A program made the position numbers and the translations under genes. DNA of 23,977 bases from a virus. The notes beneath the pieces are model-generated. The model did not search any database. It was not told where the DNA came from and was given only the letters and a program-made list of their open reading frames with translations. Below, in pieces: positions 2,698 to 23,963 of the stretch; the first letter of the stretch is position 1, and every line of letters starts with the position of its first letter. The DNA lies in IMG/VR virus record IMGVR_UViG_3300031839_001355, positions 1 to 23,977 of that record; one strand, 5' to 3'.

Positions 2698-4384
2698 TTA
2701 CGTAGAGATCGCCAAGGCCTACGCCAAGGCGGTCCTGGCAGACAGGGCAGGGAAGCGGCACGGCGAGCTGATCAAGGCGGCTGCGCGGCGGTTCCAGCGC
2801 GACCTGAAGCGAGCCCGTCAGCGCGGTGCCCGGTTCAAGTTCGACCCTTGGCACGCGAACGACGCCTGCGACTTCATCGAGAAGCTGCCGCACGTCGAGG
2901 GGGTGTGGGACACGCCGAACATCGAGCTGCACCCGTCGCATGTGTTCTTCGTCGTTCAGCTGTTCGGTTTCCGGAAGCTGGACGGGACACGGCGGTTCAG
3001 CTCGGCGCTGTTCTGGGTGGCGCGCAAGAACGCCAAGTCGACATTGGCCGCCGGCATCCTGCTGTATTGCCAGTGCTGTGAGGACGAGCCGGGCGCGCAG
3101 ATCATCAGTGCGGCAACCACCGGCAGCCAGGCGCGGATCATCTTCAACGTCGCGAAGAAGATGGCCGAGAAGACCGCGGACCTGCGGGAGGCCTTTGGCC
3201 TGGAGTGCTGGGCCAACAGCATCAGCAGGCTGGAGACTGGCAGCAGCTTCAAGCCGATCAACGCGAAGGCATCGACCCAGGACGGTCTGAACCCCTCGCA
3301 CATCGGGCTGGACGAGATCCACGCCCACAAGACAGCAGACCTGGTCAACGTGCTGGCATCTGCTGCCGGCGCCCGGCGGTCGCCGCTGACGCTGTACACG
3401 ACGACCGAGGGCTACGAGTCCCCCGGCCCGTGGGCCGATCTGCGGATGTTCGCCACCCAGATGCTGCAGGGGGTGTTCGGTGACGACGCCGACCACTTCC
3501 TGGCGGTGTGCTTCACCGTCGACAAGGACGACGAGGACTTTGACGAAACGGCCTGGATGAAGGCCAACCCGCTGGCCGAGAGCAACCCGCATCTGGTCAG
3601 CGCGATCCGGCGGGAAGCGATTGAGGCCCGGCAGATGCCGAGCAAGCTGGCCGAGTTCCGCATCAAGCGACTGAACCGGCGGGCGAGCAGTGCCGACGGG
3701 CTGATCAACATCCTGAAGTGGAACGCCTGCGACGGCCCGGTAGACCTGGACGAGCTGGAGCAGTACCCGTGCTGGGGCGGCCTGGACCTCGCCAGCACCA
3801 CCGACCTTTGCGCATGGCGACTGGTCTGGCGCCTGCCGGGTCAGTGGGTGACCTGGGGCCGGCGCTGGGTGCCGATGGATGCCGTGAAGCAGCGGACAGC
3901 CCGCGGCACCGTGCCTTATGCCGGCTGGGTGGAGCGCGGCCTGATCGTGCAGACGCCCGGTGATGTCACGGACTACGCGGTGGTGGAGCGGGACCTGATT
4001 GCCGACTGCGCGCGTTTCAAGCCACAGGCAATCGCATACGACAGCTGGAACGCCCAGGAGCTGGCGCCGCGGCTCGCCGCTGCTGACCTGCCCATGGTGC
4101 AGTTCATCCAGGGGCCGAAGAGCTACCACCCAGCGATGCAAGAACTTGAGCGCGCCTACCTGAGCGGGGCGCTTTCCCATGGCGGTGACCCGGTTCTGGC
4201 GTGGTGCGCCAGCAACCTGGTCGCGCGCCGAGACGAGAACCTGAACATGGCCCCCAGCAAGAAGCGCTCGCCGGAGAAGATTGACGACATCTGCGCCCTT
4301 CTGATGGCGATGGGTGCGGCCCTGGCCAGCGAGCAGATTGGTGACCTGGAAGGCTTTCTATCAAACCCGGTGATCGGATCGTGA
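2642..4384 (+). CDS. terL: Terminase large subunit (P27-partner, HK97-type)
   Basis: This ATPase-nuclease motor translocates DNA into the procapsid. From the TTG at 2642 it is 580 aa, the usual size; the open frame extends back to 2549 but that part shadows TerS. The deviant Walker A is ARKNAKS (about residues 127-133, K132), and Walker B plus catalytic carboxylate is HIGLDE (D224, E225). The C-terminal RNase H-like nuclease has WGGLDLASTTD with D382, YDSW with D467 and IDDICALLMA with D549. The frame is preceded by AAGG. It overlaps the portal GTG by four bases. The Walker A carries Ala where many relatives have Gly (RKNGKS), which is tolerated in this family. Confidence 0.95.
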   Translation: MARKKKATASPETASGPRDYVEIAKAYAKAVLADRAGKRHGELIKAAARRFQRDLKRARQRGARFKFDPWHANDACDFIEKLPHVEGVWDTPNIELHPSHVFFVVQLFGFRKLDGTRRFSSALFWVARKNAKSTLAAGILLYCQCCEDEPGAQIISAATTGSQARIIFNVAKKMAEKTADLREAFGLECWANSISRLETGSSFKPINAKASTQDGLNPSHIGLDEIHAHKTADLVNVLASAAGARRSPLTLYTTTEGYESPGPWADLRMFATQMLQGVFGDDADHFLAVCFTVDKDDEDFDETAWMKANPLAESNPHLVSAIRREAIEARQMPSKLAEFRIKRLNRRASSADGLINILKWNACDGPVDLDELEQYPCWGGLDLASTTDLCAWRLVWRLPGQWVTWGRRWVPMDAVKQRTARGTVPYAGWVERGLIVQTPGDVTDYAVVERDLIADCARFKPQAIAYDSWNAQELAPRLAAADLPMVQFIQGPKSYHPAMQELERAYLSGALSHGGDPVLAWCASNLVARRDENLNMAPSKKRSPEKIDDICALLMAMGAALASEQIGDLEGFLSNPVIGS

Positions 4385-5678: not shown

Positions 5679-6548
5679 ATGAGTATCAAGAACCTGCCGG
5701 GCGCCCCGGAGGGCCGAGTGCACGCTGCAGTTTCAAGTCACCTGAGCGCCCGGGCCTTGGATCGATGGAATCCCAGTGTCCATGCAGCTGATGGCCAAGA
5801 GGACGAGCGCTCGATCAGCGTCTACGACGTGATCGGCCAGGACTTCTGGACCGGTGAAGGCGTGACCGCAAAGCGGATCGCCGGCGCGTTGCGGCGGATG
5901 GGAGCTGGCCCAGTAACCGTCAATGTGAACTCGCCCGGCGGGGACATGTTCGAGGGCCTGGCGATCTACAACCTGCTGCGTGAACACAAGGGCGAGGTGA
6001 CCGTAAAGGTTCTCGGCCTTGCGGCGTCAGCCGCCTCCATCATCGCGATGGCCGGAGACACTGTGCAAGTCGCCAGAGCGGGCTTCTTGATGATCCACAA
6101 CGCGTGGGTTGTCGCTGTCGGGAACCGGAATGACCTGCGGGACTTTGCCGACACGCTTGAGCCTTTCGACACGGCTATGGCGGACATCTATGCAGCCCGA
6201 ACGGGGCGTGACCAGAAGGCCATGGCAAAGCTCATGGATGCCGAAACCTGGATCGGCGGCGCCGCTGCTGTTGAGGACGGATTTGCAGACGAGCTGTTGC
6301 CTTCTGATCAAGTCAGGCAAGACGCATCGAAGGCCAGCGCGTCGGCCGTAAGGCGGGTGGAGACTGCATTGCGCGCAGCTGGAATGCCCAAGTCCGAGGC
6401 CATGCGCTTGATCAGTGAACTCAAGTCCAGCGCGGGTGATCCCGCTGGCAGCGGTGAGGGTGATCCCACCGGACAGGGGGCGCAGTCGCTCTCCCTCAGT
6501 GCAACCGCCGCATTGGCGGAATCCCTCACACACTCATTCAAGGGGTAA
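5679..6548 (+). CDS. Head maturation protease, ClpP-like (S14 family)
   Basis: This protein (289 aa) has a ClpP-type fold. VNSPGGD appears near residue 85, a nucleophile in GLAASAAS (S117 by alignment with ClpP), the catalytic His in MIHNAW (H140) and an Asp in LMDAETWIGG (D187). By family knowledge it sits inside the procapsid and cleaves the N-terminal scaffold from the major capsid protein and itself. The C-terminal 60 residues are Ser/Gly/Ala-rich and could be its own scaffold-binding tail. It lies between portal and capsid, the standard order in HK97-type heads. Confidence 0.93.
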   Translation: MSIKNLPGAPEGRVHAAVSSHLSARALDRWNPSVHAADGQEDERSISVYDVIGQDFWTGEGVTAKRIAGALRRMGAGPVTVNVNSPGGDMFEGLAIYNLLREHKGEVTVKVLGLAASAASIIAMAGDTVQVARAGFLMIHNAWVVAVGNRNDLRDFADTLEPFDTAMADIYAARTGRDQKAMAKLMDAETWIGGAAAVEDGFADELLPSDQVRQDASKASASAVRRVETALRAAGMPKSEAMRLISELKSSAGDPAGSGEGDPTGQGAQSLSLSATAALAESLTHSFKG

Positions 6549-6552
6549 CACC

Positions 6553-7761
6553 ATGTCACTCGAAAAAGACATCGAGAGCATCAACAGCAGCCTGAAGCAG
6601 GTCGGCGACCAGCTTCGAGCCCACGCCGAGAAGGCGGATAAGGAAATCAAGGCACACGCTCAGATGAGCGAGGAAACCCGCGCCAAGGTCGATGAACTTC
6701 TCGTCAAGCAAGGCGAACTGCAGGCCAACCTCCAAGCTGCCGAACAGAAGATCGCCATTTTGGACTCCGGTGGCGGAAGCGCCGAACGCCCGAAGACGTG
6801 GGGCGAACAGCTCACCGACGCCGACGGTTTCAGCACCTTCGCGAGCGCGTCTCGCCATGGTTCTACGATCAGCGTTCCGATCAATGCCAAGATCACCAGT
6901 GACTCCGGCTCCGCTGGCGATGCTGTTGATCCCATGCGGCTGCCAGGCATCATTCGCCCTGGCGAACGTCGGTTCTTTATTCGTGATCTCCTGAGCTGGG
7001 GGCGGACGACCTCCAATGCGATCGAGTTCGTGCGGGAAAGCGGCTTCACGAATGCAGCGGAGGTGGTCTCTGAGAATCCGAGCGCCGGGAAGCCCGAGGC
7101 CGATCTGACCATGGAGTTGGATTCCCAGGCGGTGGCGACCATCGCGCACTGGATTCACGCTTCCAAGCAGATCCTGGCTGACGTGCCGATGCTTCAAAGC
7201 TATGTCGATGGCCGCCTCCGCTATGGCCTGAAGCTCAAGGAGGATGCACAGCTTCTCAAGGGCTCCGGCGTCGGGCTGAATCTCAACGGCATTTACACTC
7301 AGGCCAGCAGCTACTCCAACCCGGGCGTCGACGTTCAGGCCGAGACGCGAATCGACCGTTTGCGGTTGGCGATGCTGCAGGTTGCCCTGGCGGAGTACGC
7401 TGCCGACGGCATTGCCCTGCATCCCGTGGACTGGGCGGCCATCGAGCTCACCAAGGATTCTCAGAACCAATACCTGATCGCCAACCCGCGGGCAATTTCC
7501 GGACCGACCCTTTGGGGTCTCCCGGTAGCTGCGACACAGGCCTTCAACGTTGGCGAGTACACCGTCGGTGCTTGGCAGCAGGGAGCACAGGGCTGGGACC
7601 GTGAGGATGCCAAGCTGATCGTGTCCCTCGAAGACCGCGATAACGTCATCAAGAACATGGTGACTATGCTGGTTGAAGAGCGCCTTTCGCTGACGGTCTA
7701 TCGGCCCGAGTCCTTCGTGAAGGGGACCTTCGCCGACCTGGCCGCCTCGTCCGGCTCCTGA
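6553..7761 (+). CDS. Major capsid protein, HK97 fold
   Basis: The start is ATG 6553, with GGGG upstream, giving 402 aa; the longer frame from 6415 shadows the protease gene. Residues 1-75 are a charged coiled coil (repeated K, E and Q heptads), the delta scaffold domain. The mature shell follows, with HK97-type motifs: GIIRPGERRFFIRDLLSWG, a P-loop/E-loop region, HWIHASKQILAD, and the C-terminal VSLEDRDNVIKNMVTMLVEERLSL-like strand set. The ClpP-like protease directly upstream probably removes the N-terminal domain. A strong terminator follows, which lets the phage set capsid protein dosage above downstream genes. Confidence 0.94.
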   Translation: MSLEKDIESINSSLKQVGDQLRAHAEKADKEIKAHAQMSEETRAKVDELLVKQGELQANLQAAEQKIAILDSGGGSAERPKTWGEQLTDADGFSTFASASRHGSTISVPINAKITSDSGSAGDAVDPMRLPGIIRPGERRFFIRDLLSWGRTTSNAIEFVRESGFTNAAEVVSENPSAGKPEADLTMELDSQAVATIAHWIHASKQILADVPMLQSYVDGRLRYGLKLKEDAQLLKGSGVGLNLNGIYTQASSYSNPGVDVQAETRIDRLRLAMLQVALAEYAADGIALHPVDWAAIELTKDSQNQYLIANPRAISGPTLWGLPVAATQAFNVGEYTVGAWQQGAQGWDREDAKLIVSLEDRDNVIKNMVTMLVEERLSLTVYRPESFVKGTFADLAASSGS

Positions 7762-7779: not shown

Positions 7780-7810
7780 GCGGAGGGGGCTTCGGCCCCT
7801 TCCGCCTTTT
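7780..7810 (+). terminator. Intrinsic terminator after the capsid gene
   Basis: An 11-bp stem (GCGGAGGGGGC with GCCCCTTCCGC, one G-U pair) closed by a TTCG tetraloop is followed by CTTTT. It is a textbook rho-independent terminator inside the late operon, so downstream genes depend on read-through. Confidence 0.9.
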
Positions 7811-7821
7811 GGGAGGCAGCC

Positions 7822-8073
7822 ATGCCGGTAGTTCAAGCCATTCAGTCGTTCGAGCACAACGGGTCTCGAACGGTTGGGCAACGGTTCAACGTCTCGGCGT
7901 CAGTCGCTGATCAACTGTTCAAGCGCGGGCTCGTCGTGATTCTTGGAGGGGCGCACCCTCAGAAGGCCGGTGGTGGGATGTCGTCTGCATCGCCAGCGGC
8001 CCGAGTCTCACCGCAGACGACGTCGACCGTGTCAAAGCGTGGCGGCAAGCGGCGCCGTCGGGGCGTCGAGTAG
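7822..8073 (+). CDS. Small head-associated protein (83 aa), hypothetical
   Basis: The ATG follows GGGAGG with a 5-base spacer. The first 45 residues look like a genuine small folded domain (VVQAIQSFEHNG, then GQRFNVSASVADQLFKRGLVVIL), a type often found after capsid genes in siphophages. From about residue 50 the protein becomes a low-complexity Ser/Thr/Arg tail that ends in KRRRRGVE. That tail shadows the frame encoding the first SGPS-motif protein, so it may not be conserved. I cannot assign a function; a head-completion or head-decoration role is inference from position. Its overlap with the next reading frame is unusual and treated as a separate finding. Confidence 0.6.
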   Translation: MPVVQAIQSFEHNGSRTVGQRFNVSASVADQLFKRGLVVILGGAHPQKAGGGMSSASPAARVSPQTTSTVSKRGGKRRRRGVE

Positions 8074-8573
8074 TCGTTGCAAACACATCATTCCGCGCTG
8101 CCCCTTGGGCGGACGCGCTGTTCGCGATGGACCGAACATGGTGGGACAAGCACATCATCGAGGTCCGGCAGACATTCAGCGGTGCGCTGTTCACCACTTC
8201 GCACCAGTGCAAACGGTATGGCCTGGAGCCGATGGGCACCTATGGCCGCGGCTTCGACCCGTGCGGCAACAGCGGCGCAGGCTGTATCGCGCTCGCCCAC
8301 CTGTTCGGCGCCGCACGTGTTGGGCTTCTTGGGTATGACTGCGCGCTCACAGGCGGTCGAACGCATTGGCACGGTGACCACCCCAAGGGGCTGGGCAATG
8401 CCGGGTCGGTGGGAAAGTGGCCGGAACAGTTCCGGCGCCTGGCGGCACACATTGGCGGGCTCGCAGTGTTCAACTGCAGCCGCAGCACGGCCCTGACGCA
8501 ATGGCCCCGGCAGACACTGGAGCAGTTCCTGGCGTTCGATTCGGTCGAGTCGATGTCCGCGCTCGCCGCGTAG
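7971..8573 (+). CDS. SGPS-motif transferase-like protein 1, start codon not evident
   Basis: The open frame runs from 7911 (after a TGA at 7908) to TAG 8571-8573. From about 7971 it encodes WWDVVCIASGPSLTADDV, then VVVANTSF, WADALFAMD, a central CGNSGAGCIALAHLF, and GAARVGLLGYDCALTGG followed by HWHGDHP. The (A/G)SGPS loop after a first beta strand followed by a Rossmann-like core resembles MptE-like (DUF115) and GT42 sialyltransferase proteins, so a nucleotide-sugar or glycan transferase role is plausible. No ATG, GTG, TTG or CTG exists in this frame before ATG 8127, which lies after the conserved motif. The start is therefore unresolved: frameshift from the 7822 gene, non-standard start, or sequence error. 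It is a paralogue of the following gene. Confidence 0.62.
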   Translation, partial: WWDVVCIASGPSLTADDVDRVKAWRQAAPSGRRVVVANTSFRAAPWADALFAMDRTWWDKHIIEVRQTFSGALFTTSHQCKRYGLEPMGTYGRGFDPCGNSGAGCIALAHLFGAARVGLLGYDCALTGGRTHWHGDHPKGLGNAGSVGKWPEQFRRLAAHIGGLAVFNCSRSTALTQWPRQTLEQFLAFDSVESMSALAA

Positions 8574-9184
8574 TGATCGCCGGCAGCGGGCCGAGTCTGG
8601 CGGCGATGGTCCGGCAGTCGATTCCCTTCTGCCAGGTCGTCGCGGTCAACGGCGCGGTGCACCAGGTGCAGGCGGACCACTGGTTCACGCTGGACCCGAG
8701 CATGGCGAATCGGGACCGGATGCGGCGGCCGATACCGGGCGTCCGCTACTGGGCCGCGGTGCCGCCAGATTACGGCACGCCATCGGCTCAGACCACGGAG
8801 ATGCGGGCGCCGGCAGACGCGCACGTCACCTACCTGCAGCGGCTGGTTGGGGACGGGACGCTGGGCAGCCGTCCGGGCCTAAGCAGTGATCCCGGGGCCA
8901 TCCACACCGGAAACAGCGCCTATGGCGCATTGGGGCTGGCCTACCTGATGGGGGCTCGGCGAATTGTCCTGGTGGGTGTGGACGGGGCGGGTGGGTACCA
9001 CGGAGCAGCTGGCGCGCCGCGAGACCTGCGGCACCTGCCGGACCTGTTCGCCAGCGCGGTGCCGCAGCTGTCCGCCGCCGGCGTGCAGGTGGTGAATGCG
9101 AGCATGGAGAGCACGATCCAGTGCTTCCCGAAGATGCGGTTCAAGGAGGCATTGCGATGGATGTGGCAGACCGCGAGCGCGTGA
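8573..9184 (+). CDS. SGPS-motif transferase-like protein 2 (203 aa)
   Basis: The GTG at 8573 overlaps the TAG of the preceding gene. It reads straight into VIAGSGPSLAAM, the same Rossmann-type nucleotide-binding loop as protein 1, then VVAVNGAV, DHWFTLD, a substrate-binding middle, TGNSAYGALGLAYLMGARR and IVLVGVDGAGGYHGA. GT42 sialyltransferases and MptE-like pyrophosphokinases share the G-x-GPSL loop, so a sugar- or nucleotide-transfer role is inferred, not shown. An upstream in-frame ATG at 8501 would add 24 residues and extend the first beta strand, but it lacks a ribosome site. Tandem arrangement with protein 1 suggests duplication. The gene runs into the methyltransferase gene, whose ribosome site lies within it. 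Confidence 0.72.
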   Translation: MIAGSGPSLAAMVRQSIPFCQVVAVNGAVHQVQADHWFTLDPSMANRDRMRRPIPGVRYWAAVPPDYGTPSAQTTEMRAPADAHVTYLQRLVGDGTLGSRPGLSSDPGAIHTGNSAYGALGLAYLMGARRIVLVGVDGAGGYHGAAGAPRDLRHLPDLFASAVPQLSAAGVQVVNASMESTIQCFPKMRFKEALRWMWQTASA

Positions 9185-9714
9185 AGTACGAAACCATGTG
9201 GGCGCAGCCTGCCTATCGGGAGCGGTCGCCTGGCATGCGAATGGCCGAGCAGGCGCATCAGCAGTTGCGGTGCCGGCCCGGCGCCACCCTGTGTGATTGG
9301 GGCGCCGGCACCGGCCGGGCGTCGGCATGGTTCGCCGCCCAGGGCCTCGATGTCACCGCCGTGGACATCGCCGCCAATGCAGTGACCGAGTTCGATGGAC
9401 CGGTTGTGGTGGCCAACCTGTGGGAGCTGCCGGACGAGCTTGGCCCGTTCGACTTCGGGTTCTGCTGTGACGTAATGGAGCACATCCCGCCGGAGCACGT
9501 CGAGGCCACCCTGCGCGGCATTGCCCAGCGCACGCGCCGGGCCTGCTACTTCCAGATCGCGCTGTTCAAGTGCCACATGGGGGAGGCCCACGGACTTCAC
9601 CTACACCTGACGGTGAAGTCGGCCAATTGGTGGCGGGCGGCGCTGGAGCGGCAGTTCATGTACGTGGACCTACAGGCGGACAGCAAGTACGCGTTGGCGA
9701 GGGCCATCCCGTGA
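9157..9714 (+). CDS. Class I SAM-dependent methyltransferase
   Basis: This protein is 185 aa from ATG 9157, with AAGGAGG at 9143-9149 placed 7 bases upstream. The Rossmann motif I is CDWGAGTGRAS (residues 46-56), the acidic end of strand 2 is VDIA (D70), and the motif II/III region is DFGFCCDVMEHIPPEHV, typical of small-molecule or sugar methyltransferases (methyltransf_11/23-like) and unlike DNA methylases, which would carry DPPY or PC motifs absent here. Substrate unknown. It sits between the SGPS proteins and the glycosyltransferase, so methylation of a sugar or glycan is the simplest inference. Its TGA overlaps the next GTG. Confidence 0.85.
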   Translation: MDVADRERVKYETMWAQPAYRERSPGMRMAEQAHQQLRCRPGATLCDWGAGTGRASAWFAAQGLDVTAVDIAANAVTEFDGPVVVANLWELPDELGPFDFGFCCDVMEHIPPEHVEATLRGIAQRTRRACYFQIALFKCHMGEAHGLHLHLTVKSANWWRAALERQFMYVDLQADSKYALARAIP

Positions 9715-10328
9715 TCGTCGCCTGCGTGCTGCGCTCCGGCGGGCACTACGACGTCGAGTACGTCGAGCGGCTTTATCGGGATGTCCGCTGGCACACGCCG
9801 GCGGCTCGGTTCGTCTGCCTGTCGGACGTGGACGTGCCCTGCGAACGGATTCCGCTGATCCATGACTGGCCGGGCTGGTGGGCCAAGATCGAGCTATTCC
9901 GGCCGGGCCTGTTTCATGGGCCTGTGCTGTACCTGGATCTGGACAGCCTGGTGGTGGGCGACGTGACTCCGCTGTTCCGGAAGCGGTTCACCGCCCTGGC
10001 CGACTTCTATCGGCCGTCGAGCGGCATCGGCTCCGGCGTGATGGCTTGGGAGGGTGACATGAGTCACCTGTACCACACGTTCCGCGAGACCCCGGACATC
10101 TGGCAGAACCACTGCACGTCCCGGGAATGCTGGGGCGACCAGGGGTTCATTGCCCTGCACCAGCAGGCCGACAAGTTTCAGCAGCTGCTGCCTGACCTCG
10201 TTCAGAGCGTGAAGCTGCGGGCGCCGCGGGCCAAGGCCCGGGTGCTTTGTTTCCATGGGCGTCCGAAGCCGCGGGACGTCAACTGGCGCGCCCCGTCGGG
10301 CGTCTACACCGTGAGGAGCCGCGCATGA
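9711..10328 (+). CDS. GT-A type glycosyltransferase (GT8-like)
   Basis: This 205-aa protein starts at GTG 9711 (overlap GTGA). It has the GT-A features: an N-terminal strand VIVACVLRSGG, an FVCLSDVDV strand, PLIHDWPGWWAKIELFRPG, then the metal-binding YLDLDSLVVGD (D76, D78) and a C-terminal FHGRPKPRD (H182), which in GT8-type enzymes completes the metal site. By family knowledge it transfers a sugar from a nucleotide-sugar donor to an acceptor. Expression in the late operon suggests acting on virion proteins or on the host surface at lysis. The acceptor is unknown. Its stop overlaps the connector gene start. Confidence 0.83.
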   Translation: MIVACVLRSGGHYDVEYVERLYRDVRWHTPAARFVCLSDVDVPCERIPLIHDWPGWWAKIELFRPGLFHGPVLYLDLDSLVVGDVTPLFRKRFTALADFYRPSSGIGSGVMAWEGDMSHLYHTFRETPDIWQNHCTSRECWGDQGFIALHQQADKFQQLLPDLVQSVKLRAPRAKARVLCFHGRPKPRDVNWRAPSGVYTVRSRA

Positions 10329-10684
10329 CCACAGTCACCGTCGCCGAGGTGAAGCGCTTTCTCCGGGTGGTGCACGCCTTCGATGACCAGCTGCTGGGCG
10401 AGCTGATCGCGTCCGCTGAGTCCGAGGTGTGCCGCTTCCTCAACCGGACCTCGTTGCCAACCCTGCCGCCCGACCTTCCCGGCGAGTACGACAGCAACGG
10501 GATCTGGGTGCCGGGTGCCGAGCAGGAGGCATCGAGCGAGGATCCTCTGGCCCCCGATGTGCGGCTGGCGATCAGCTATCTGGTGCAGGCCGCCTACGAA
10601 GGGTCCAAGCCCGAGGATCGCGCTAAGATGCGCGAGGCGGCCGAGACCATCCTGATGCCGTATCGAACCGGGCTGGGTGTGTGA
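10325..10684 (+). CDS. Head-tail connector (gp6-like)
   Basis: This 119-aa protein has an N-terminal TVAEVKRFLRVVHAFDDQLL and helix-rich LIASAESEVCRFLNRT, the usual pattern of HK97 gp6-type connector proteins that form a ring under the portal. The C-terminal half (DVRLAISYLVQAAYEG) is the second conserved helix pair. Its ATG overlaps the glycosyltransferase TGA, and its own stop overlaps the next gene. Position right before the adaptor protein supports the call. Confidence 0.85.
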   Translation: MTTVTVAEVKRFLRVVHAFDDQLLGELIASAESEVCRFLNRTSLPTLPPDLPGEYDSNGIWVPGAEQEASSEDPLAPDVRLAISYLVQAAYEGSKPEDRAKMREAAETILMPYRTGLGV

Positions 10685-11947: not shown

Positions 11948-12433
11948 ATGACCACTGGTACCGTAAAAACGCAGGGGACCCGACTGTTCTTCGCAGTGTC
12001 GGATTCCGAAATCCTCAAGGTCGCGTGCCCGACCGGCATCACCGGCTTGGGTGGGCCTGGAGGCCAGATCGGCACCACCTGCCTCGACAGCGAGGAAATG
12101 GAGTACGAGCGCGGCATGCTTGATCCCGGCCCGCTGACGGTGCCGATCAACTTCATCCCGCGCTCGGCCGCTCACCAGGCCCTGATCGATCTGCGCGAGA
12201 GCGGCGAGAAGATCAGCTGGATGATCGTGTTCTCGGATCGCACCGGGGCTGGGCCGACCACGCTCGACAGCAATGGCCGTCTGGTCTCGCCTGGTCCGAC
12301 CACTGCCGAGTTCCTGGCCTATGTCAGCGACTTCGCGTTCGACATCGCCACCAACGAGATCGTGCGCGGCACGCTCACCCTGCAGCGCAGCGGTGCGGCG
12401 GAATGGAACTTCCCGGGGGCTGATCTCGCATGA
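11948..12433 (+). CDS. Major tail tube protein
   Basis: The start is ATG 11948 with ACAGGAGG at 11933-11940; a longer ORF from 11927 runs over the ribosome site and is unlikely. The product is 161 aa, beta-rich, with TQGTRLFFAV, then CPTGITGLGGPGGQIG, and a C-terminal VRGTLTLQRSGAAEW, the ending common to siphophage tail tube proteins. It polymerises around the tape measure to make the tube. It is followed by G-type chaperones and the tape measure, the lambda order. Confidence 0.85.
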   Translation: MTTGTVKTQGTRLFFAVSDSEILKVACPTGITGLGGPGGQIGTTCLDSEEMEYERGMLDPGPLTVPINFIPRSAAHQALIDLRESGEKISWMIVFSDRTGAGPTTLDSNGRLVSPGPTTAEFLAYVSDFAFDIATNEIVRGTLTLQRSGAAEWNFPGADLA

Positions 12434-12789
12434 GCGACTTTCTGACGGAAGTGCTTGCGGCCGACAAGCCGGTCTCGCGTGAGGTGGACTTCGGCGGGCG
12501 GATCGGGACGGTGTGGTTCCGCCGCCTGTCCGCCGGCCAGCGCGCCCAGCTGCTCAAGGGTCAGAAGGTCAGCACCAAGATGGGCGAGACCGCCGAAGTG
12601 CAGGTCGACCTCGGCGAGAACGAGAACACCAAGCTGCAGATGCTGCAGTTCTGTGTGTGCCACGAGGATGGCCGGGCCTACTTCAAGGACCTGGCCGCGG
12701 TGCAGAAGATCCCGCAGGACAAGGCCTCGGTCCTGTATGAGCACGCCTCCGAAGTCAATGGCGAGGTGGGGGAGCCGGGAAAGCCCTGA
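12430..12789 (+). CDS. Tail assembly chaperone, gpG-like
   Basis: This 119-aa protein is the unshifted product of the G/T pair. It is charged, helical, with FLTEVLAADKPV and a central QVDLGENENTKLQML-type segment. By family knowledge G coats the tape measure to direct tail assembly. At its 3' end, codons GGA AAG follow a G to form the slippery GGGAAAG (12777-12783), six codon-bases before the TGA at 12787. A fraction of ribosomes slips here and makes the G-T fusion (see next entry). Confidence 0.86.
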   Translation: MSDFLTEVLAADKPVSREVDFGGRIGTVWFRRLSAGQRAQLLKGQKVSTKMGETAEVQVDLGENENTKLQMLQFCVCHEDGRAYFKDLAAVQKIPQDKASVLYEHASEVNGEVGEPGKP

Positions 12790-13112
12790 CCGACAGCCCG
12801 GAGCTGCGGCGGCTGTGCCGCTTCTCTGTGCTGTACCGCCGGCCGCTGCATGAGGTGGCGGCCTGGCCAGAGCTGCACCTGGCCCTGCTGGAGCATTACC
12901 TGAGCCGGCAGCCGGCACCAGAGGAACGCATCGAGGTGGCCGTGGCCACGCTGTGCACCTTGTTCCGCAACCGACACCGTTCTGAGAACGAACCGGCCTT
13001 CGAGGTCGAGCAATTCCTGCCGTACCGCACCCCGTGGGCTGAATCCCCCGCTGAGCGATACAGCGAGGTGGATCGGTCCTTCTTCGCTGCGTTTGGAGTT
13101 CGCGTGAAATGA
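12430..13112 (+). CDS. Tail assembly chaperone G-T, made by -1 frameshift
   Basis: The zero frame is read from 12430 to the GGGAAAG at 12777-12783, then shifts back one base (AAA at 12780-12782, GCC at 12783) and continues to TGA 13110-13112, giving about 227 aa. The T part reads ALTDSPELRRLCRFSVLYRRP onward with no start of its own before the shift. It contains LHEVAAWPELHLALLEHYL and a C-terminal PAERYSEVDRSFFAAFG. This is the same slippery heptamer as lambda G-T. The T domain is thought to recruit tail tube protein. The stop overlaps the tape-measure ATG. Confidence 0.86.

Positions 13113-23887: not shown

Positions 23888-23963
<76 letters not shown>

Follow-up and report, generated by a model that had tools for sequence, protein, structure and literature searches.

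The four overlapping transferase-type genes that follow the capsid gene in this viral contig are predicted to act together as a protein-modification module of the phage, and synthesis of the first enzyme probably depends on −1 programmed ribosomal frameshifting. Taken by itself, the −1 frameshift is a very likely reading of the sequence. The comparison of related sequences shows a missing start, a fixed slip codon, a hairpin, a constant frame relation, a natural in-frame fusion, matching folds and the recurrence of the block; from these features we infer that ribosomes slip here, and how often. As far as the searched literature and the annotations show, the frameshift is undescribed; no account of it was found in a search that barely covered subscription journals.

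The late operon and its overlapping genes

The window, that is the whole 23,977-bp viral contig analysed, carries an HK97-type late operon encoding a portal, a ClpP-like protease, the capsid protein, a gp6-like connector and head completion. The features of the region are as follows.

6547–7761: capsid gene (PF05065, E 9e-48)
7822–8073, plus strand: small post-capsid ORF of 83 aa (phrog_7993, E 7e-7; phrog_2616, E 7e-5; weak DUF7210 match)
7911–8573, plus strand: open frame of gene A, SGPS-1 (phrog_4603, E 9e-51)
7956–7959, plus strand: proposed −1 slip site C CCU, where CAC CCU of the small frame is re-read as CCC in the enzyme frame
7959–8573, plus strand: predicted transframe part of gene A, the SGPS-1 transferase domain of the PmgO/HdmB family
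7965–8001, plus strand: proposed stimulatory hairpin with an 11-bp GC-rich stem, arms 7965–7975 and 7991–8001 (z −2.08 in the window)
8573–9184, plus strand, GTG start: gene B, SGPS-2, PmgP/HdmC family (phrog_2111, E 4e-34; phrog_4603, E 3e-14)
9157–9714, plus strand, ATG start: gene C, class I SAM-dependent methyltransferase (Pfam Methyltransf_25, E 4e-9)
9711–10328, plus strand, GTG start: gene D, DxD glycosyltransferase, GT8-like, PmgQ/HdmD family (phrog_1962, E 1e-47)
10325–10684, ATG at 10325: gp6-like connector (PF05135)

Reading frames A to D fill the interval between the capsid gene and the connector and overlap by 1 nt (A/B), 28 nt (B/C) and 4 nt (C/D), with a further 4 nt between D and gp6. 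The matches of these genes to their families are far beyond chance. Gene B is a distant relative of gene A and has a tblastn match to P1 PmgP, and in gene C the families Methyltransf_25, Methyltransf_23 and Methyltransf_11 all exceed the Pfam cut-offs. Coordinates and profile matches together confirm the initial annotation in placing four overlapping transferase-type genes here, and the overlaps make the late co-expression with structural genes that it proposed plausible. The extent given there needs one addition: the four genes stand, but the small ORF at 7822–8073, which overlaps A, also belongs to the feature. As for the terminator said to separate the block from the capsid gene, a consensus scan found none; the sequence around 7780–7810 does, however, contain a GC-rich inverted repeat with TTTT after it. 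At the right end of the contig, on the minus strand at 23888–23963, lies a tRNA-Thr (CGT) gene, possibly host sequence or an attachment site.

The start of the first enzyme and the candidate frameshift

In the proposed mechanism, ribosomes would start the small post-capsid gene at 7822, and most of them would reach the stop at 8071–8073, giving a product of 83 aa that ends in a disordered, basic tail. The GC-rich hairpin 5 nt downstream would pause the ribosome at C CCU (7956–7959), where a fraction would slip back one base as the tRNA-Pro moves from CCU to CCC. Slipped ribosomes would read the SGPS-1 frame to 8573 and produce a 250-aa fusion (46 aa of the small domain plus 204 aa) that joins a capsid-side domain to a transferase of Maf/GT42 fold. 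Genes B, C and D would then be translated via overlapping stops and starts.

The frame of gene A overlaps the small ORF in the −1 sense and has its first ATG, GTG or TTG at 8127, 44 codons past the nucleotide-binding SGPS motif, with none ahead of it. The left border formerly set at 7971 does not mark a gene start. To place this arrangement among its relatives, 206 loci with the SGPS motif were collected and reduced to 109 non-redundant representatives (<85% identity). In 71 of these, the 40 codons upstream hold no start codon and a small ORF overlaps the enzyme frame in the −1 sense. Seven are mixed, and the remaining 31 start on their own, are in-frame fusions or otherwise miss the strict criteria. 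D3 and a few others in the mixed class have a GTG in frame upstream, which counts against the frameshift reading. The frameshift-arranged set used below (n = 77) consists of the 71 strict and 6 mixed representatives, a tally distinct from the 71 of 77 given below for the CCC codon; that the small frame is open past the motif in 77/77 is partly circular, as class membership demanded openness. On the enzyme tree the arrangement is found in a single large part that is well supported, and it has changed several times to other arrangements. Sequencing error behind the missing start was rejected because 71 divergent representatives, isolate-genome prophages among them, and D3 are all arranged in this way; the presence of the arrangement in prophages of isolate genomes also argues against assembly error.

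A CCC codon of the enzyme frame stands at a fixed place in 71 of the 77 frameshift-arranged representatives, 12–16 codons before SGPS and as a rule five codons before a conserved Trp, whereas in the rest of the enzyme ORF CCC accounts for 1.1% of codons; since the codon was sought within codons −16 to −12, the search itself contributes to the fixed position, though not to the frequency. The small frame reads NNC CCN at this place with a variable fourth base, a sequence that would allow −1 re-pairing. In the window the site has the one-tRNA form only; that C CCN is not the usual X XXY YYZ heptamer counts against the reading. Canonical heptamers replace CCC at about the same place in L103 (A AAG GGC) and L104 (G GGA AAA), and C CCA AAG, likewise counted as a canonical heptamer, occurs at the slip place of D3 and L032 and in D3-like loci. 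The C CCN of L068 and L079 lies further upstream than usual, L078 has A AAG, and in Psp6 (L088, around 3950–4030) the usual C CCN is absent and no convincing slip site was recognised. In L067, L105 and L142 a stop codon immediately precedes CCC in the enzyme frame, and therefore the shift cannot lie further upstream. A Shine-Dalgarno-like stimulator upstream of the site is not general, being found in about 22/71 by a loose pattern. Frameshifting by +1, as in Listeria phage PSA, was rejected, since wherever the two overlap the enzyme frame is −1 (or +2) relative to the small frame, and slippage of RNA polymerase is unlikely on a run of merely CCC or CCCC.

Downstream of the slip codon, at a distance of 5 nt (within the range of about 5–9 nt looked for), begins the 11-bp stem, in which GGCCGCTGGCG can pair with CGCCAGCGGCC. 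Over the 42 nt at this spot the folding z averages about −2 for the frameshift class, compared with values near 0 at 30–150 nt to either side and −0.22 at the equivalent place in own-start relatives. RNAalifold, run unaided on alignment A2, chose a different 4-bp pairing and not the 11-bp stem, which was then evaluated as a predefined structure. Its pair cells are standard in 89% (61 sequences), compared with 23–57% when slid by 1–3 columns. Double-change cells number 16, against 5.7 ± 1.9 after shuffling (0 of 500 shuffles), a covariation to be read with the caveat that many stem changes are one-sided and that both arms are also protein-coding. The compensatory changes fall at wobble positions; pair 11–51, for example, is GC, AU, CG or GU, with its 3′ base at a Gly wobble position. 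In the capsid-centred sample described below, a loose hairpin score alone gave no separation of phages with and without the enzyme, because 9/10 pairs arise by chance in GC-rich sequence.

The small ORF consists of a shared N-terminal domain of about 46 aa and a last third that is read in two frames. The same small domain is found 3′ of the capsid gene in related phages both with and without enzyme A. A phrog_2616 survey of 300 genomes yielded few capsid-linked controls, and a capsid-centred sample was used instead. In this sample most of the 41 distinct post-capsid ORFs without the enzyme retain the N-terminal domain and have unrelated C-termini, and nearly all ORFs with the enzyme carry the tail SSASPAAxxS, which is the other reading of the enzyme N-terminus. 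The small domain looks like a docking module with exchangeable tails. Among loci without the enzyme (L341–L420, e.g., L357 and L383), the C-termini of the small domain are a helical-looking tail of about 70 aa or long PEAP repeats.

Several loci serve as natural controls. In L061 and L062 the small domain and the enzyme are encoded in one frame as a natural in-frame fusion; L174 has a similar small domain but the frameshift arrangement. The Bordetella prophage L311 carries capsid, small ORF and gp6 but lacks the enzyme; the base before its proline codon is A and not C, and no hairpin was seen at the slip region (z −0.66).

Initiation of enzyme A inside its own frame, at the first ATG past SGPS (8127), would mean that the similarity further upstream is incidental, arising from the overlapping small gene. 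The seven GenBank records examined (D3 orf7, Psp6 and five D3-like phages) all begin the enzyme there, truncated and after the motif, or show no full-length gene; none is joined, and some omit the small ORF. Such a start is nevertheless very improbable. It would remove the first strand and the nucleotide-binding SGPS loop, both conserved in own-start, non-overlapping homologues, and because the stretch VCxASGPSL is kept in such homologues (P1, PAJU2, Eowyn) it must be real protein sequence. In L078, L080, L146 and L165 the first start codon lies 96–119 codons past SGPS, and conservation of the small ORF's C-terminal tail is limited to phages that have the enzyme. Slightly less probable still is a start at a non-standard codon inside the overlap, coupled to the small gene: rare start codons exist and the overlapping genes of this operon are probably coupled, but the stretch from CCC to the motif shows neither a conserved near-cognate start codon nor a ribosome-binding site, and initiation leaves the fixed CCC, the spaced hairpin and the replacement heptamers unexplained.

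The predicted −1 frameshift has parallels in other phages. The gpG/gpGT tail chaperones of lambda and the capsid genes of A118, A500, A2 and T3 also use −1 recoding in the late operon to make a short and a C-terminally extended product (PMC5009743). In contrast to these systems, the extension here would consist of an enzyme domain, the slip site mostly takes the form C CCN, and it is the post-capsid small protein that forms the short product. The cps gene of Listeria phage PSA likewise combines a proline codon with RNA structure in the head region, but shifts by +1 and extends the capsid protein (PMC5009743). The window itself also contains a tail assembly chaperone pair (12430–13112), with a canonical −1 slippery heptamer GGGAAAG at 12777 in the first ORF and a second frame open from 12741, apparently an ordinary frameshift of the lambda G/GT type. 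Among the closest counterparts of the post-capsid arrangement is orf6.5–orf7 of Pseudomonas phage D3, in which the same small ORF overlaps the SGPS-1 frame in −1 with the slippery sequence C CCA AAG. The two are annotated as separate genes with orf7 truncated and, unlike in the window, B and D are absent at this place.

Relatives of the block and folds of the enzymes

By tblastn against phage records, A, B and D match PmgO, PmgP and PmgQ of P1 and HdmB, HdmC and HdmD of P7 in the same order (gene D to PmgQ, E 1e-27), so that all three homologues are found in the order O-P-x-Q. The P1 genes pmgO-pmgP-ppp-pmgQ and the P7 genes hdmB-hdmC-ppp-hdmD resemble the window in having a fourth gene between the B and D homologues; in P1 the phosphatase gene ppp occupies the slot where the window has methyltransferase C. 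Unlike gene A, pmgO has its own start, and the P1 block, annotated as having putative morphogenetic functions, lies away from the capsid gene. Under laboratory conditions P1 can do without pmgO, pmgP, ppp and pmgQ (PMC10695390), and therefore the function of pmgO, pmgP and pmgQ may be subtle. Among the fetched loci the recurring orders are A-B-ppp-D (71 P1-like loci) and A-B-C-D (L301–L303), with further orders capsid-A-B-D (L008, L210), A-D-C-B (L293, L295) and capsid-A-gp6-Hc1-B-C-D (L154). The frameshift-arranged enzyme adjoins the capsid gene on its downstream side in nearly all loci. A second homologue of enzyme A lies downstream in the same locus in L023/L192 and L069/L078.

The block is thus known in kind, and its function is predicted. 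The same four-gene order, for which the initial annotation had proposed a search, does occur elsewhere (L301–L303), and the gene set recurs as a block. That annotation's description of the enzymes as unusual finds no support, homologues of A, B and D having been known since the P1 and P7 genomes were annotated. Nor is the term pathway supported, as no sugar-nucleotide biosynthesis gene lies within the four-gene block.

The predicted folds agree with a transferase assignment, although a fold does not tell donor or acceptor. A model of the A-type protein, built from the in-frame fusion L061 (pLDDT 91.2), matches the Maf glycosyltransferase 5mu5 with Z 16.1 over 173 residues at 2.4 Å, the GT42 enzyme CstII with Z 11.7 over 171 residues (rmsd 3.3), and MptE-type HPPK with Z 11.4; the resemblance of the SGPS proteins to GT42 and MptE folds was correctly anticipated. 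Gene A has the GT42 fold with no Pfam GT42 match at E ≤ 1, and the PHROG label alpha-2;3-sialyltransferase is annotation only. The domain likewise shares the fold of the Maf flagellin glycosyltransferases, but its match to the Pfam Maf/MptE-like family (PF01973) reaches 12–19 bits, below the gathering cut-off of 34.6. The best structural match to the fusion model is BFVD entry A0A6J5LUM5 (278 aa; 259 columns), which may be a further case of small domain and transferase naturally joined in one frame. The assignment of the DxD protein as a glycosyltransferase is upheld by the model of gene D (pLDDT 89.8), which has a GT-A/GT8 fold nearest to glycogenin (Z 18.2) and an invariant D76xD78; no Pfam family matches it at E ≤ 1.

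Possible target of the module

A, B and D may add a sugar to a head protein, and C may methylate that sugar. Glycosylation of a head protein by the block is nearly an even call, and it is conceivable, if somewhat short of probable, that the small domain tethers the enzyme to the capsid or prohead. FlmG offers an analogy: an N-terminal substrate-binding domain gives this enzyme its specificity, and it is modular like the predicted fusion, although it is not described as a frameshift product (PMC7591256).

A different target, the host surface (lipopolysaccharide or capsule) or DNA in place of a virion protein, is compatible with the frameshift and is rather unlikely. Cell-surface glycans are also substrates of GT42 and GT8 enzymes, D3 is known to change O antigen through other genes, and in P1, PAJU2 and Eowyn the block does not adjoin the capsid gene. 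Against this, the frameshift-arranged enzyme almost always follows the capsid gene and would be fused to a capsid-side domain, and its nearest fold is that of Maf, which glycosylates the self-assembling protein flagellin (PMC11339370).

With head-protein glycosylation as the target, we tentatively propose a Gag-Pol-like device, in which a −1 frameshift at C CCN with its hairpin would fuse a head-associated domain to a protein glycosyltransferase, so that a few copies of the fusion, carried on or within the head during assembly, would glycosylate it. Such a device would have been overlooked in D3 and many relatives because annotation pipelines truncate the enzyme. The predicted frameshift would place a conserved recoding site, so far unannotated, in the head region of many phages, the classic phage D3 included, and would correct a widespread database truncation of a glycosyltransferase. 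The long-unexplained pmgO, pmgP and pmgQ genes of P1 gain a concrete hypothesis in head-protein glycosylation. If the small domain docks on the capsid, the arrangement would be a phage parallel to the Gag-Pol targeting of an enzyme to the viral shell.
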